DNA of 64,000 bases from Mesorhizobium terrae (lineage in GTDB: Bacteria > Pseudomonadota > Alphaproteobacteria > Rhizobiales > Rhizobiaceae), in NCBI RefSeq assembly GCF_008727715.1, contig NZ_CP044218.1:1054001-1118000 (forward strand). Reading direction: 5' to 3'. Below are positions 8,651 to 27,921 of the stretch, in pieces. A program made the position numbers and the translations under genes. Under the pieces are notes generated by a model, which ran no database searches, had not been told where the DNA came from, and saw nothing but the letters and a program-made list of their open reading frames with translations. The first letter of the stretch is position 1; every line of letters starts with the position of its first letter.

Positions 8651-8686
8651 GCAAATATTGACGTTTGCGTAAACGTCAATATTTGC
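8651..8686. promoter_or_regulatory. Perfect 16-bp inverted repeat, probable operator of the MerR-type regulator
   Basis: The arm GCAAATATTGACGTTT (8651-8666) is perfectly repeated in inverse at 8671-8686 around the spacer GCGT. Its core TTGACGTTT-N4-AAACGTCAA is shared, with one mismatch, by the site at 26612-26635 before the nitronate monooxygenase gene, and its ACGTTTACG-like centre by the site at 9442-9461 before the regulator gene itself. It lies in the leader of the 598-aa acyl-CoA dehydrogenase gene and could overlap a TTGACG -35 box. This resembles MerR-family operators such as those of LiuR; the family assignment of the site is inference. Confidence 0.65.
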
Positions 8687-15877: not shown

Positions 15878-17068
15878 ATGTCCGACGCAGCAATCCTCAA
15901 AGGCGAACCGGCGGTGCAGCCCTGGCTGGTGATGCTGGCGCTCGCCATCGGCGGCTTCGCCATCGGCTCGACCGAATTCGCGGCCATGAGCCTGCTGCCC
16001 TATATCGCGGCCGGGCTCGGCATCGATGAGCCGAAGGCGGCGCACGCGATCAGTGCCTATGCGCTGGGGGTGGTCGTCGGCGCGCCGATCATTGCCGTGT
16101 TGTCGGCCCGCGTTCCGCGCCGCACCCTCTTGATGGCCCTGATGGCCGCCTATGGCATAACCAACTGCCTGACCGCGCTCGCGCCCAACTATGAATGGCT
16201 GCTTGTCCTGCGTTTCCTCAGCGGCATGCCGCACGGCGCCTATTTCGGCGTCGCGGCACTCGTCGCGGCATCGCTGGTTGGCCCGAAGGAACGGACCACC
16301 GCCATCGCACGCGTCATGCTTGGCCTGACAGTGGCGACGATCATCGGCGTCCCGGCGGCGACCTATCTCGGCCAGGTATTCGGCTGGCAAGCGGGCTTTG
16401 CCCTGACCGGCTTTCTGGCGCTGGCGACCTTCATCATGGTTGCCCTGTTCGCACCACGCGACAGGCCCGACGAAGACGCCAGCCCGCTGCGCGAACTCGG
16501 CGCCTTCCGCAACCGGCAGGTGCTGTTGACGCTGGCAACCGCCATCGTCGGCTTCGGCGGGCTTTTCGCCGTCTACTCCTACACCGCTTCGACCTTGCTC
16601 GCAGTCACCAAGGTCGATCCGCGCCTGGTTCCGCTGGTGATCGGCCTGTTCGGCGTCGGCATGACGCTGGGCAATCTGGTTTCGGCCTGGGCCGCGGACA
16701 AGGCGCTGAAGCCGACGGCGACGGTGCTTTTGATCGCCAGTGCTGCCGCCCTCTTCGCTTTCCCTTATTCGGTCGGCGCGCTGTGGTCGATCTCGCTCGT
16801 CGTCTTTCTCGTCGGCTGCACAACGGGCCTCGCTATCGTGCTGCAGACCTATCTGATGGATGTCGCGCGCGACGCGCAGACGCTTGCTGCCGCCGCCAAC
16901 CACAGCGCCTTCAACGTCGCCAACGCCCTCGGCCCCTGGCTCGCCGGCCTCGCCATTTCCGCCGGCTACGGTTTCCCTTCGGCGGGTTATGTCGGCTGCG
17001 GCCTGTCGCTGGCCGGGCTCGTGCTCTGGGTCATCACCATGATGGACGCGAAACGGCGGCCGGCATAG
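15878..17068 (+). CDS. MFS transporter (AraJ/SotB-like drug or sugar efflux family)
   Basis: A 396-residue major facilitator protein with twelve predicted helices. The N-terminal helix has IGGFAIGSTEFAAMSLLPYI, typical of the arabinose/drug efflux branch. The conserved loop between helices 2 and 3 reads LSARVPRRTLL, and helix 4-5 carries RFLSGMPHGAYFGVAALVA. An AGGAG site stands 7 nt before the ATG, and a perfect 12-bp palindrome CGTTGCGCAACG at 15848-15859 could be an operator. The gene is flanked by two copies, one partial, of pdeM sequence, suggesting that it entered by a duplication event. The substrate is unknown. Confidence 0.88.
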   Translation: MSDAAILKGEPAVQPWLVMLALAIGGFAIGSTEFAAMSLLPYIAAGLGIDEPKAAHAISAYALGVVVGAPIIAVLSARVPRRTLLMALMAAYGITNCLTALAPNYEWLLVLRFLSGMPHGAYFGVAALVAASLVGPKERTTAIARVMLGLTVATIIGVPAATYLGQVFGWQAGFALTGFLALATFIMVALFAPRDRPDEDASPLRELGAFRNRQVLLTLATAIVGFGGLFAVYSYTASTLLAVTKVDPRLVPLVIGLFGVGMTLGNLVSAWAADKALKPTATVLLIASAAALFAFPYSVGALWSISLVVFLVGCTTGLAIVLQTYLMDVARDAQTLAAAANHSAFNVANALGPWLAGLAISAGYGFPSAGYVGCGLSLAGLVLWVITMMDAKRRPA

Positions 17069-17138: not shown

Positions 17139-17855
17139 TTACCCTGGCCGCAACATGGCGCTGGAAATGGCGAAGATGCGGTCAGTGCCCAGCATATAGA
17201 CCATCAGCGCGTCGCGGTTGAACAGGCCGCGATAGGCCGGGTCGAGTACGTTGAGCGAGCCGGTATAGGCGCCGAAGGCAGGCATGATCATGCGTCCGCC
17301 GTCGCCGGCAAAGCAGCGGCGGCGCACCGAGCGGCCGCGCTGCACGATGCGCGCGCAGGGATGCAGATGGCCGGCGATCTCGCCTTCGACGCGCTGCCTC
17401 GACGGCTCGTGGCGGAACAGCACGGCGCCGACCGCCAGCTCCAGTATAGTCTCGCCGGGCAGGTCGGCCGGCGCTTCCGGGTCATGGTTGCCGGCGATCC
17501 AGAACCAGTCGCGCCCGGTCATCAGCCCTTCCAGCCGGGCGCGAAAATCGGGATGCAGGCGTTCGGCGCCTTCACCGTCATGAAAGGAATCGCCCAGGCT
17601 GACGACGATCTTCGGCCGGTAATCCTCGATCACCGCCTCGAGGCGCGACAGCGTGGCGACGGTGTCGTAGGGCGGGATCAGCTTGCCGCGCCGGGCGAAG
17701 GACGAGCCCTTTTCCAGATGCAGGTCGGAGACGGCGAGCAGGGCAAGGTCGGGGAAGAACAAGGTACCGCGCGGATCGCACAGCGCACGCTCGCCCGAGA
17801 TGGCGACCATCTCGGCGGCGGGTGCTGTCGATGCGCGCACGGCGGAAAAATTCAT
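17139..17855 (-). CDS. pdeM: Ligase-associated DNA damage response endonuclease PdeM (metallophosphoesterase)
   Basis: A 238-residue calcineurin-like phosphoesterase. Metal-binding motifs are DLHLEKG (Asp44/His46), SLGDSFHD (Asp89), GNHDPE (Asn123/His124) and the later GHLHP. Members tied to DNA ligase clusters are called PdeM and are thought to act as nucleases in repair. Its ATG overlaps the stop of the helicase gene upstream by 4 bases (ATGA), so the two are translationally coupled. A partial second copy lies at 15652-15760. The length and motifs are complete. Confidence 0.9.
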   Translation of the reverse strand: MNFSAVRASTAPAAEMVAISGERALCDPRGTLFFPDLALLAVSDLHLEKGSSFARRGKLIPPYDTVATLSRLEAVIEDYRPKIVVSLGDSFHDGEGAERLHPDFRARLEGLMTGRDWFWIAGNHDPEAPADLPGETILELAVGAVLFRHEPSRQRVEGEIAGHLHPCARIVQRGRSVRRRCFAGDGGRMIMPAFGAYTGSLNVLDPAYRGLFNRDALMVYMLGTDRIFAISSAMLRPG

Positions 17856-20572
17856 CGTGGTCCCATCGCTTCCTCGACCAGATCGGCCACCTCCATCAAG
17901 AGCGATTCATTGGCGCCGCCATTGACCGGCTCCTTGCCGATCTCCAGCATCACCGGCACGGCCAGAGGCGAGATGCGGTCGAGCGTCTTATGCACGATTC
18001 GACCGCGGATGCGCGAGAGCATGTCGGCCAGCCTCGCGACATCGAGCAGGCCGGCGGCGGCGTCCGTTCGGGTCGCCTGCAAAAGGATGTGGTCCGGCTC
18101 GTGGCTGCGCAGCACATCATAGATCAGGTCGGCCGACACCGTCACCTGGCGGCCGCTCTTCTCCTGGCCGGGAAACCGCTTCTCGATCAGCCCGGCAATG
18201 ACGGCGCAGTTGCGGAAGGTGCGCTTCAGCATCCAGCTGTCGTTCAGCCAGGCGTCGAGATCGTCGCCCAGCATGTCCTCGTCGAACAGTTCGGCCAGCG
18301 ACGGCTGCCTTGCCTTGAACAGCGCGCCCATGTCGTCCAGCGCCCACACGGCCAGCGAATAGTCGGTGGCGACGAAGCCGAGCGGGCGCGCATTGGCGCG
18401 TTCCAGCCGGCGCGTCAAAAGCATGCCCAGCGTCTGGTGCGCCAGCCTGCCCTCGAAGGGGTAACACACCATGTAGTGGCGGTTGCCCTTCGGAAAGGTC
18501 TCGACCAAAAGATCGCCCTGTTTCGGCAGCACCGAGCGCAGCTTCTGCATGCCCAGCCACTCCGACACCTGCTCGGGCAGTTTTTGCCAGCGCCCGGGGT
18601 CGGCCAGCATGGCGCGCACCTGCTCGGCCAGATAGGTCGAAAGCGGGAACTTGCCGCCGGCATAAGACGGCACGATGATGTTGGCGCCGGTGCCGTTGGA
18701 GACGATGCACTCACTTTCGCGGATGCCTTCGAAGCGCAATATTTTGCCGGCAAACAGAAAATTGTCGCCCGGCCGCAGCGTCTCGGCGAAATATTCCTCG
18801 ATCTTGCCAAGCACCGGCCCGCCGCGCCCGGCCATGCCGCGACCCTGGCGCACATAGCGCACGTTGAGCTCCGGCATCTCGACGATGGTGCCGACATTGA
18901 GGCGGTATTGCTGAGCGATGCGCGGATGCGTTACCCGCCACAGTCCCTCCTTGGTGCGACGGATGCGGGCGTAACGCTCGTAACTCTTCAGCGCATAACC
19001 GCCGGTGGCGACGAAATCGACGACACGGTCGAAGGTCTCGCGCGCGAGCGCGGCGTAGGGCGCGGCCGAGCACACCTCGGCATAGAGCTGGTCGGCATCG
19101 AAGGGCGCCGCGCAGGCGGAACCCAAAACATGCTGCGCCAACACGTCCAGCGTGCCGGCCAGCAGCGGCGGCGTGTCCTGCGCACCGAGATAATTGGCGT
19201 CGAGGGCTGCCCGGCATTCCAGCACCTCGAAGCGGTTGGCCGGAATGAGGATGGCCTTCGACGGCTCGTCCATGCGGTGGTTGGCGCGGCCGATGCGCTG
19301 GGCAAGCCGGCTCGCGCCTTTCGGCGCGCCGACATGCACGACAAGGTCGACATCGCCCCAGTCGATGCCAAGATCCAGGGTGGAGGTGGCGACGATGGCG
19401 CGCAAGGCGTTGTCGGCCATTGCCTTCTCGACGCGCCGCCGCTGGCCCACTTCCAGCGAGCCGTGATGCAGCGCGATCGGCAGCGCGTCCTCGTTGGCCC
19501 GCCACAGTTCCTGGAACAGGAGTTCGGCCTGGCTGCGCGTGTTGACGAACAGCAGCGTCATCTTGTGGCGGCGGATCGCCTCGTAGACCTCGGGAATGGC
19601 GTAGCGCGCCGAATGGCCCGACCATGGCACGCGCTCGCGCGAATCGAGGATCGAGATGTTTGGCTTGGCGCCGCCGGCGACGGTGATGAGGCCGGCCATG
19701 GGGGCGGTGGTCGTTGAAGGAGAGTTGGCGCCATACCCCCTCTCCGTCTCGCCTTGCGGGCGAGCCACCTCTCCCCCGCCTCCGGCAGGGGCGAGGAATC
19801 GCTGCCGCGACGCCTGCGCTTCTCCAGCCTGGGTTCCTCGCCCCCACGAATGTGGGGGAGAGGTGGTCTGCGGAGCAGACCGGAGAGGGGGAACGCGCTC
19901 GACGCTATTCTCCAAAGCAACCTGCGGCACCAGCCAGCGGCGCAATTCGTCCGGCTCGGCCACGGTGGCGGAAAGGCCGATGGCGGTCAGCTCCGGCACG
20001 AAGCTGCGCAGTCTCGCCAGCCCCAGCGCCAAAAGATGGCCGCGCTTGGAGGTCACCAGCGAGTGCAGCTCGTCCAGCACGATGTAGCGCAAATCCTCGA
20101 AGAAACGGTCGGCGCCGTTCGACGCGATCAGCAGCGCCAGCTGCTCGGGCGTGGTGAGCAGTATATCCGGCGGCGCCAGCTTCTGACGCTGGCGCTTGTG
20201 AGCGGGCGTGTCGCCGGTGCGCGTCTCGATCGTGACAGCCAAGCCGATCTCCTCCACCGGCTTGCCGAGGTTGCGCTCGATGTCGACGGCCAATGCCTTC
20301 AACGGCGAGATGTAAAGCGTGTGCACGCCGCGAGGGCGCATGCCGGGTTTATGCCTTGGCCGCTCGGCCAGTTCCGTGAGCGAAGGCAGGAAACCGGCCA
20401 GCGTCTTGCCGGCGCCGGTCGGCGCGATCAGCAGCATCGAGCGGCCCGACCGCGCATTGGCCAAGAGCTCCAACTGATGCGCGCGCGGCGACCAGCCCTT
20501 GGCCCCGAACCACCGAATGAAGGGTTCGGGGAGCAGGCTGTCTTCGGCAACAAGGCGCGGTTCGGCTTTCAC
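17852..20572 (-). CDS. Ligase-associated DEXH-box DNA helicase (Lhr-core type) with in-frame repeat insertion
   Basis: A 906-residue superfamily 2 helicase. Motif I is APTGAGKT (Lys56), motif II is DELH at 167-170, motif III is SAT at 201-203, and motifs V/VI lie in ATSTLDLGIDWGDVD and QRIGRANHRMD. The C-terminal Lhr-like winged-helix and WCB-like region follows. This family clusters with PdeM, an MBL exonuclease and an ATP-dependent ligase and unwinds 3'-tailed DNA. The start is GTG at 20572. Residues 228-279, rich in Pro, Gly and Arg, are encoded exactly by the 156-bp palindromic repeat at 19736-19891. They sit between motif III and the conserved LITVAGGAKPNISIL strand, so the protein is about 50 residues longer than expected. 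Confidence 0.9.
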   Translation of the reverse strand: MKAEPRLVAEDSLLPEPFIRWFGAKGWSPRAHQLELLANARSGRSMLLIAPTGAGKTLAGFLPSLTELAERPRHKPGMRPRGVHTLYISPLKALAVDIERNLGKPVEEIGLAVTIETRTGDTPAHKRQRQKLAPPDILLTTPEQLALLIASNGADRFFEDLRYIVLDELHSLVTSKRGHLLALGLARLRSFVPELTAIGLSATVAEPDELRRWLVPQVALENSVERVPPLRSAPQTTSPPHSWGRGTQAGEAQASRQRFLAPAGGGGEVARPQGETERGYGANSPSTTTAPMAGLITVAGGAKPNISILDSRERVPWSGHSARYAIPEVYEAIRRHKMTLLFVNTRSQAELLFQELWRANEDALPIALHHGSLEVGQRRRVEKAMADNALRAIVATSTLDLGIDWGDVDLVVHVGAPKGASRLAQRIGRANHRMDEPSKAILIPANRFEVLECRAALDANYLGAQDTPPLLAGTLDVLAQHVLGSACAAPFDADQLYAEVCSAAPYAALARETFDRVVDFVATGGYALKSYERYARIRRTKEGLWRVTHPRIAQQYRLNVGTIVEMPELNVRYVRQGRGMAGRGGPVLGKIEEYFAETLRPGDNFLFAGKILRFEGIRESECIVSNGTGANIIVPSYAGGKFPLSTYLAEQVRAMLADPGRWQKLPEQVSEWLGMQKLRSVLPKQGDLLVETFPKGNRHYMVCYPFEGRLAHQTLGMLLTRRLERANARPLGFVATDYSLAVWALDDMGALFKARQPSLAELFDEDMLGDDLDAWLNDSWMLKRTFRNCAVIAGLIEKRFPGQEKSGRQVTVSADLIYDVLRSHEPDHILLQATRTDAAAGLLDVARLADMLSRIRGRIVHKTLDRISPLAVPVMLEIGKEPVNGGANESLLMEVADLVEEAMGPR
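19736..19891. repeat. 156-bp palindromic repeat inserted in frame within the helicase gene
   Basis: The terminal arms begin CCCCCTCTCCG and end CGGAGAGGGGG. Each half contains its own inverted repeats (CTCGCC TTGC GGGCGAG on the left, GGTCTGC GGA GCAGACC on the right) and a CCACCTCTCCCCC / GGGGGAGAGGTGG pair. The element is exactly 52 codons long and keeps the helicase frame open. It resembles the intergenic repeats at 1175-1385 and 22540-22568. It adds a low-complexity peptide to the helicase between ATPase domain 1 and domain 2. Confidence 0.8.
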
Positions 20573-21285: not shown

Positions 21286-21492
21286 GCCGTCATTCCGGCC
21301 GAGCGCAGCGAGAGCCGGAACCCATTGGCCGCACCATCGTCGAGCCCGGCCCGGTCCTCGTCCTGGACCGTTCACGCAACCGGACCGGCGTCGCATGCTT
21401 CATGTCGTCCGTGCGACCTTCGTTCCCGGCCGCGCTGCTCAATGGGTTCCGGGTCGGCGCTCGGCTTCGCCTCGCTTGCCCGGAATGACGAG
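21286..21492. repeat. 207-bp inverted-repeat element of the CGTCATTCCGG type
   Basis: The left end CGTCATTCCGG at about 21287-21297, followed by GAACCCATTG near 21313-21325, is mirrored by CAATGGGTTCC near 21439 and by CCGGAATGACG at the right end. An inner GAGCGCAGCGAGAG / CTCGGCTTCGCCTCGC pair lies in each half. Such elements are widespread between genes of rhizobia. No transposase is encoded. It lies downstream of the methyltransferase gene, which ends at 21576. Confidence 0.65.
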
Positions 21493-27710: not shown

Positions 27711-27749
27711 GCCGCTTTAGCTCAGTCGGTAGAGCACATCATTCGTAAT
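27711..27749 (+). repeat. Truncated 5' half of tRNA-Thr (39-bp direct repeat)
   Basis: The 39 bases from the acceptor 5' strand to the end of the anticodon loop are identical to the first 39 bases of the complete tRNA at 27846-27921. The following sequence (27750-27845) is unrelated and cannot form the T arm or acceptor 3' strand. It is therefore not a functional tRNA but a recombination or attachment scar. Confidence 0.85.
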
Positions 27750-27845
27750 TGGCGGGTCCGCCAGAGAATGAAGTGCAAAGCCAGCGGGTTAGGGTTGAAG
27801 AGTAAGAGTTAGTAGGGCCATAGTAGTGTGGCCGATCGTTGGTAA

Positions 27846-27921
27846 GCCGCTTTAGCTCAGTCGGTAGAGCACATCATTCGTAATGATGGGGTCAGGTGTT
27901 CGAGTCACCTAAGCGGCACCA
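27846..27921 (+). tRNA. tRNA-Thr (anticodon CGT)
   Basis: A 76-nt cloverleaf with CCA encoded. The acceptor GCCGCTT pairs with AAGCGGC, the D arm is GCTCAGTCGGTAGAGC, the anticodon stem CATCA/TGATG encloses TTCGTAA with anticodon CGT, and the T arm is AGGTGTTCGAGTCACCT. A T-rich run follows. It marks the left border of an accessory, AT-richer segment. Confidence 0.95.

Follow-up and report, generated by a model that had tools for sequence, protein, structure and literature searches.

How does a palindromic repeat of a type otherwise seen between genes come to lie, in frame, within a conserved DNA repair helicase, and has this happened more than once? The question is raised by a 64,000-nucleotide stretch of Mesorhizobium terrae (assembly GCF_008727715.1, contig NZ_CP044218.1, positions 1,054,001 to 1,118,000; hereafter the window, in which all unmarked coordinates are counted), where a preliminary description made from the letters alone had placed a 156-bp inverted-repeat element, exactly 52 codons long, inside the gene for a ligase-associated helicase. 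Our analysis confirmed its position (19736..19891, minus strand), length, frame and residue numbers (228-279), and supports its interpretation as an insertion. Beyond that description, the protein linker that holds the element appears to be a recurrent landing site for different repeats, with gains or losses, and changes of element type, across species. We consider it very probable that palindromes resident in each genome are mobile and repeatedly insert into this linker, and that purifying selection keeps those insertions that are in frame.

The element, which we call type A, runs from a left terminal arm, CCCCCTCTCCG (19881..19891, minus strand), to a right terminal arm, CGGAGAGGGGG (19736..19746, minus strand), which are paired in the fold and whose boundaries recur among copies, such that its ends read CCCCCTCTCC...GGAGAGGGGG; an inner arm, CCACCTCTCCCC, occurs on the plus strand at 19765..19776 and again on the minus strand at 19855..19866. 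The predicted RNA fold of the 156 bp reaches -109.5 kcal/mol (z = -7.7), a value matched by none of 200 dinucleotide shuffles, and the element ranks first among 1639 segments in a GC-corrected folding scan of the window, a scan used because an inverted-repeat search that tolerated few mismatches, and neither G-U pairs nor bulges, had missed it. (A perfect 16-bp inverted repeat with a 4-base loop was additionally seen at 8651-8686.) Rfam gave no match between positions 17000 and 24500, and a protein search with the insert alone, limited to similar-length proteins sharing 5-letter words, returned the window helicase itself only.

The host gene (17852..20572, minus strand, GTG start) encodes, insert included, a 906-aa ligase-associated DNA damage response DEXH helicase, which scores 1096.9 bits against TIGR04121 (curated cutoff 850) and contains the Pfam domains DEAD (31-207), Helicase_C (334-430), WH_Lhr and DEAD_assoc. 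The element lies between the first two, downstream of the SAT motif, which we take to be motif III, and, as the preliminary description had it, the conserved sequence resumes behind it in a frame that is unbroken across all 906 codons. Ratios of nonsynonymous to synonymous substitution rates (dN/dS) against the four nearest relatives are 0.11-0.13 before the insert and 0.07-0.10 after it, and against a fifth, more distant relative (L089) 0.13-0.15; such low values on both sides, a sign of purifying selection, fit a working helicase gene. Hairpin-rich GC DNA is hard to assemble, and one might suspect an assembly or annotation artefact, or a pseudogene; given the intact reading frame, the low dN/dS and the comparable inserts, likewise in frame, in the assemblies of many species, this explanation is so improbable as to be negligible.

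Comparison with relatives reveals what the site looks like without the element. The linker comprises 115 residues in the window helicase vs. 47 in Mesorhizobium sp. 1M-11 (L058), which is 95% identical to the window in its best segment and whose empty site reads VPQPPGAAPMAGL. The earlier claim that 52 residues had been added holds for the element itself, but relative to this empty site there are 68 extra alignment columns, so that the whole extra segment approximates 68 codons or 204 bp of element plus flanks (residues 218-285; about 19718..19921, minus strand, with edges computed from residue numbers and uncertain by a few codons). In homologues the 52 residues are absent: among 30 loci read, 23 are insert-free and six others are filled with other elements. 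The two observations on which the insertion idea could have failed both came out in its favor, as the repeat is present elsewhere in the genome and strains without it lack the residues.

Across 103 helicases, in-frame inserts of at least 10 residues were found in 22, all at one site, after residue 217. The filled helicases come from Mesorhizobium, Aminobacter, Pseudaminobacter, other genera of the family and Hyphomonas, and a filled site is not peculiar to the window's strain, whose closest helicases either lack an insert (1M-11) or contain a different element. The 81 insert-free helicases, which include most Mesorhizobium read as well as Nitratireductor, Roseibium and Bradyrhizobium, have 44, 46, 47, 48 or 51 residues between the SAT and PW anchors, and exactly 46 in 48 cases. 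Elsewhere within the proteins, extra blocks of at least 10 residues were confined to one of 10 residues shared by five Bradyrhizobium and one of 19 in Hyphomonas, and C-termini were extended in four helicases. Three loci (L012, L013 and L090) have C-terminal extensions of 41-47 residues with the common motif GTADYGRR, which did not look palindromic. Since the 103 helicases are a convenience sample (duplicates removed, L106 left out as its motif was not found) that is enriched for inserts, insert-spanning matches having ranked first in two of the searches, 22 of 103 is not a frequency. In a search of the genus, matches spanned the linker in 7 of 99 genomes; of the 92 remaining, 23 were read and proved insert-free, and two (G007, G067) gave partial matches. 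In a wider search, at least 13 of 360 matching genomes (394 searched) span the linker among the matches listed, a lower bound because G360, which bears an insert, did not span it.

Type A itself is a dispersed and otherwise intergenic repeat, as had been proposed. It recurs at 3 further places in the window's genome, 1 of them partial, and gives matches in 96 of 99 Mesorhizobium genomes searched, many with boundaries 1-156 (8 candidates were scored per genome, and loci are mostly one per genome). Judged by a codon-position GC heuristic, none of 31 other copies (3 from the same genome and 28 from relatives, some of them partial, with L155 left out) is spanned by a frame that shows coding bias, which makes the helicase copy an unusual one within its family. 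The preliminary description had pointed to further coding copies of the repeat as a check; none of type A was found among these 31, and the in-frame copies seen belong to other families, including one in the window genome's own PolA. As judged by eye, flank sequences also recur among relatives' type-A copies, and the repeat unit may accordingly be longer than 156 bp. The idea that these flanks form pairing outer arms was dropped, as just 2 of 25 copies showed such pairing, the window's not among them. Divided by 3, the lengths of 23 type-A copies leave each of the three possible remainders (in 9, 7 and 7 cases), and at least 2 of 6 frames are open in every copy, so that an element would occasionally land in frame by chance and be retained by selection; the in-frame state of the helicase copy fits such a selective filter.

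We next consider what fills the site elsewhere. All-against-all blastn sorted the 22 inserts into types A to F: type A (1) in the window only; type B (8) in G005, M. loti LU, IRAMC:0171, four Aminobacter and LHD-90; type C (2) in Root552 (G051) and G373; type D (3) in M. composti (G042), 61-13 and G295; type E (5) in G076, Pseudaminobacter soli, G260, G109 and G340; and type F (1) in G230, with a degenerate insert in Root157 and that of Hyphomonas oceanitis left ungrouped. The window's insert matched none of the other 21 at E 1e-5. Like the window's element, most inserts are strongly folded, 15 of 22 reaching z = -4 or lower (e.g., -17.8 in G373, -14.3 in Root552, -12.3 in 61-13 and -9.5 in M. 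composti; mononucleotide shuffles were used for relatives' helicase inserts and PolA linkers, dinucleotide shuffles for the window element). Each of the four relatives' inserts that were tested proved to be a repeat resident in its own genome. Matches to the Root552 insert number 80 in its own genome and 0 in the window's, those to the M. composti insert 147 in its own and 143 in the sister genome G076, and those to the LHD-90 and Hyphomonas inserts 106 and 16 in theirs; these counts include both strands and single arms, so that actual copies are fewer, and only some candidates were scored in larger genomes. By eye, the inserts of L012 and L013 look composite, with two repeat types in each, as though one had inserted into the other.

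How often the site changed state can be gauged from a tree of 100 helicases, 21 of them with an insert, built with the linker excluded. At minimum 12 gain/loss changes are required, at least 6 of which are forced by branches with a Shimodaira-Hasegawa-like approximate likelihood ratio (SH-aLRT) of 95 or more, and counting element type raises the number to 19, a figure that stays at 19 under a stricter grouping of the types and falls to 17 under a coarser one. A previous tree, of 86 helicases, gave 7 and 5; both trees were quick searches without bootstrap, and L104, L105 and L109 had been removed from the larger one as long branches. Filled sites stand beside empty ones, as in G109 and G389 or in an Aminobacter clade with 4 filled and 4 empty members. 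Sister helicases also carry unlike types, namely C in G051 and D in 61-13, D in G042 and E in G076, and D in G295 and F in G230, and four members of genus g80 carry types B, C, E and E.

The same pattern could in principle arise from a single ancient insertion in the family's ancestor, kept in some lineages, with its type later swapped by ectopic recombination or gene conversion with resident repeats. Sister species that are both filled and yet differ in type would be expected from such swapping, for which the arm segments shared by some types offer possible homology; L012 and L013 look by eye like composites of several repeat types, and the same genomes are rich in three of the families. Against it stands the near-uniformity of the empty linkers (46 residues in 48 of 81) in outgroups and many genera, next to filled sisters, because one ancient origin would need many near-exact excisions; moreover, the window's type A matches no other insert. 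We regard a single old insertion as quite improbable, and favor repeated insertion.

The helicase is not the only gene with an in-frame repeat. Among 75 elements in 71 stretches of two genomes (G042 and G051), 9 were flagged, again by the codon-position GC heuristic, as lying within coding frames, 8 of them with Pfam support and all in M. composti, where the hosts are a PGA_cap capsule protein, an E2 acyltransferase, the helicase HrpB, PolA, a phosphonate-binding protein, a nitrite/sulphite reductase-like protein, an FAD amine oxidase and the ATP-dependent ligase. The ninth, a 196-aa frame in G051 (L295), is doubtful, has no Pfam family and was not counted. Through other loci we found 4 further in-frame copies, three in G076 (a class I tRNA synthetase, presumably isoleucyl by its sequence, an oligopeptide-type ABC ATPase and E2) and one in A. 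niigataensis (a hydantoinase). Two more flagged copies, L222 and L174, were rejected because GC was highest at codon position 1, as on the wrong strand, and L222 also has no Pfam family.

In the window's own genome, PolA carries a palindromic repeat different from type A, in frame between its exonuclease domains (G000:C2:2562515-2562676; L304, L311). Different palindromes occupy this PolA linker in M. composti (z = -5.3), 61-13 (z = -12.0) and the window genome (z = -6.8), linkers having been folded for five of seven genomes. The window genome holds about 19 matches to its PolA element, mostly single arms. Within the window itself, an arm of the PolA-type repeat has a match at 1171-1229, with 81% identity over 59 bp (E 9e-7).

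A third repair protein with a filled linker is the helicase's partner, the cisplatin damage response ATP-dependent DNA ligase (TIGR04120; 23692..25287, plus strand), whose linker holds an insert in M. composti and A. niigataensis and none in the window genome (G000), G051, G076, 61-13, G005 and LHD-90. Together with the genes for the ligase-associated endonuclease PdeM (TIGR04123; 17139..17855, minus strand) and the ligase-associated exonuclease (TIGR04122; 22553..23695, plus strand), it belongs to the repair module in the window, and it is this neighborhood, combined with the score above cutoff, that places the helicase in TIGR04121. Further along the window, a 48-nt stretch at 27711-27758, which lies 135 bp before an intact tRNA-Thr gene (27846-27921), is 92% like the 5' part of that gene and was perhaps left by an integration event.

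These hosts bear on whether the helicase linker is special as a target or merely tolerant. Random insertion with no special target, a version of repeated insertion that is fully compatible with it, could account for the confinement of all helicase inserts to one site, and for the eight other in-frame copies of M. composti, several of which lie between domains (E2, PolA, HrpB). Coding copies are rare elsewhere, however, with 0 of 31 for type A and one doubtful case besides the helicase in G051, and a proteome should hold many equally tolerant linkers, which we infer rather than count. We find this version plausible, and lean only slightly away from it.

A different possibility is that the insert is useful, its mRNA hairpin or protein loop tuning the expression or activity of a repair helicase such that insertions are favored. 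Recurrence in the helicase, in the partner ligase of two species and in PolA would suit this idea, as would the many intragenic repetitive extragenic palindromes (REPs) described in DNA synthesis and repair genes (PMC3733652). It sits poorly with the insert-free state of most Mesorhizobium helicases read, with the absence of any motif common to all inserts seen (type A matching none of the others), and with 1M-11, whose empty site may be a loss, and we deem it unlikely. Somewhat less doubtful, and still tentative, is the suggestion that linkers of repair enzymes (helicase, ligase, PolA) are preferred landing pads, each lineage loading its own repeat into the same codon window; such a preference, going beyond tolerance, might stem from insertion at places of repair or replication within these genes, or from selection acting on the length of the linker.

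Our preferred account, repeated insertion of resident repeats, can be put as follows. Non-autonomous mobile palindromic repeats of each genome's resident families would occasionally insert into coding DNA, moved by some enzyme, and purifying selection would retain insertions that leave the frame open within a tolerant stretch. One such stretch, filled repeatedly, would be the linker that joins the two RecA domains in the ligase-associated helicase of Lhr type; in the window strain, the 156-bp type-A element (about 204 bp with the whole extra segment) would have landed there. The insert would then be translated as 52-68 low-complexity residues, for which we expect a flexible loop on the protein surface, and the helicase would keep working.

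Several points weigh against this account. Mobility is something we infer from sequence comparison rather than observe directly, and no target-site duplication is evident by eye in the type-A flanks, whose recurrence leaves the true ends uncertain. The insert types are not sharply separated, as segments of about 45-56 bp, 82-89% identical, are common to C, E, F and B and the type D grouping rests on arms of 40-50 bp. Four inserts fold weakly (z of -0.7 to -3.3; L009, L013, L053 and L057) and three fold like shuffles (L008, L046 and L109), and the PolA linker likewise folds like shuffles in G051 (z = 0.2) and weakly in G076 (z = -2.8). The type B insert of LHD-90 finds only 4 matches in G054, 4 in G055 and 0 in G005, so type B is not high-copy in that clade, and its presence in Aminobacter, LHD-90 and G005/G054/G055 may partly descend from one old insertion. 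The number of gains is also uncertain, as gains and losses are not everywhere separable; the possible loss in 1M-11 is a case in point.

In-frame palindromic repeats are an already known kind of phenomenon. The closest parallel, drawn in the preliminary description and upheld here by hairpin size and by the joint presence of intergenic and in-frame copies, is with the Rickettsia palindromic elements (RPEs), which are about 105-150 bp long and occur both between genes and in frame in conserved genes, with ten families in one lineage (PMC2229807, PMC10969869). RPEs were described as fused in frame within 19 Rickettsia reading frames, with one product shown to be active (PMC2229807), and the one RPE-bearing product tested had a changed affinity (PMC2229807, PMC10969869). 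At 156 bp and z = -7.7, the window element is comparable to these stable, long hairpins of about 100-150 bp, and it has both intergenic and in-frame copies, one in-frame copy for type A and several for other families; likened by such features rather than by sequence, it appears to work like RPEs. In contrast to RPEs, the repeats studied here are GC-rich, belong to rhizobia and their relatives, and recur as several families at one codon position across genera. The main text of PMC10969869, a later review that repeats the RPE account, makes no mention of rhizobia.

REPs with GTAG or CGTC tags offer a second comparison. A survey of these located palindromes within open reading frames of several species, those of DNA polymerase I and a DNA ligase among them, and saw that recB of X. 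campestris and recB of X. oryzae hold different REPs at roughly the same position; its main text mentions rhizobial repeats and not Mesorhizobium (PMC3733652). The window element differs from REPs in its unit, which is 156 bp with recurrent 1-156 boundaries rather than 20-40 bp, in its ends, which carry neither a GTAG nor a CGTC tag, and in the recurrence of helicase insertions across several genera and repeat types. The region that lies upstream of the helicase gene contains, at 21288-21490, inverted CGTCATTCCGG...CCGGAATGACG sequences similar to published CGTC-tagged REPs.

As a short, dispersed element with terminal inverted repeats, too small to encode a transposase, the window element also resembles miniature inverted-repeat transposable elements (MITEs). 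RIME is a dispersed palindromic repeat of rhizobia, and the likeness of the window element to it and to the Br-REPs is one of description (rhizobial, dispersed, palindromic) rather than of sequence. Br-REP1 and Br-REP2 are likewise dispersed palindromic repeats of rhizobia (PMC5082802), and the MITEs ERIC, YPAL and Correia are small and non-autonomous, have transcripts that form hairpins, and contain open frames that are fused to genes (PMC2229807). In the literature searched, with most subscription journals outside it, we found no report of in-frame palindromes in Mesorhizobium or Aminobacter.

Rickettsia offers the best-described protein-coding palindromes, and REPs and MITEs supply further cases from other bacteria. 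In the rhizobia and relatives studied here, one site of one gene has been filled repeatedly by different repeats, with empty sisters available for comparison. If the landing-pad suggestion holds, these repair proteins would carry linkers that are encoded by mobile DNA and continually replaced. Two questions thereby become testable: whether such repeats prefer particular coding targets, and whether selfish DNA serves as a source of neutral or useful protein segments.

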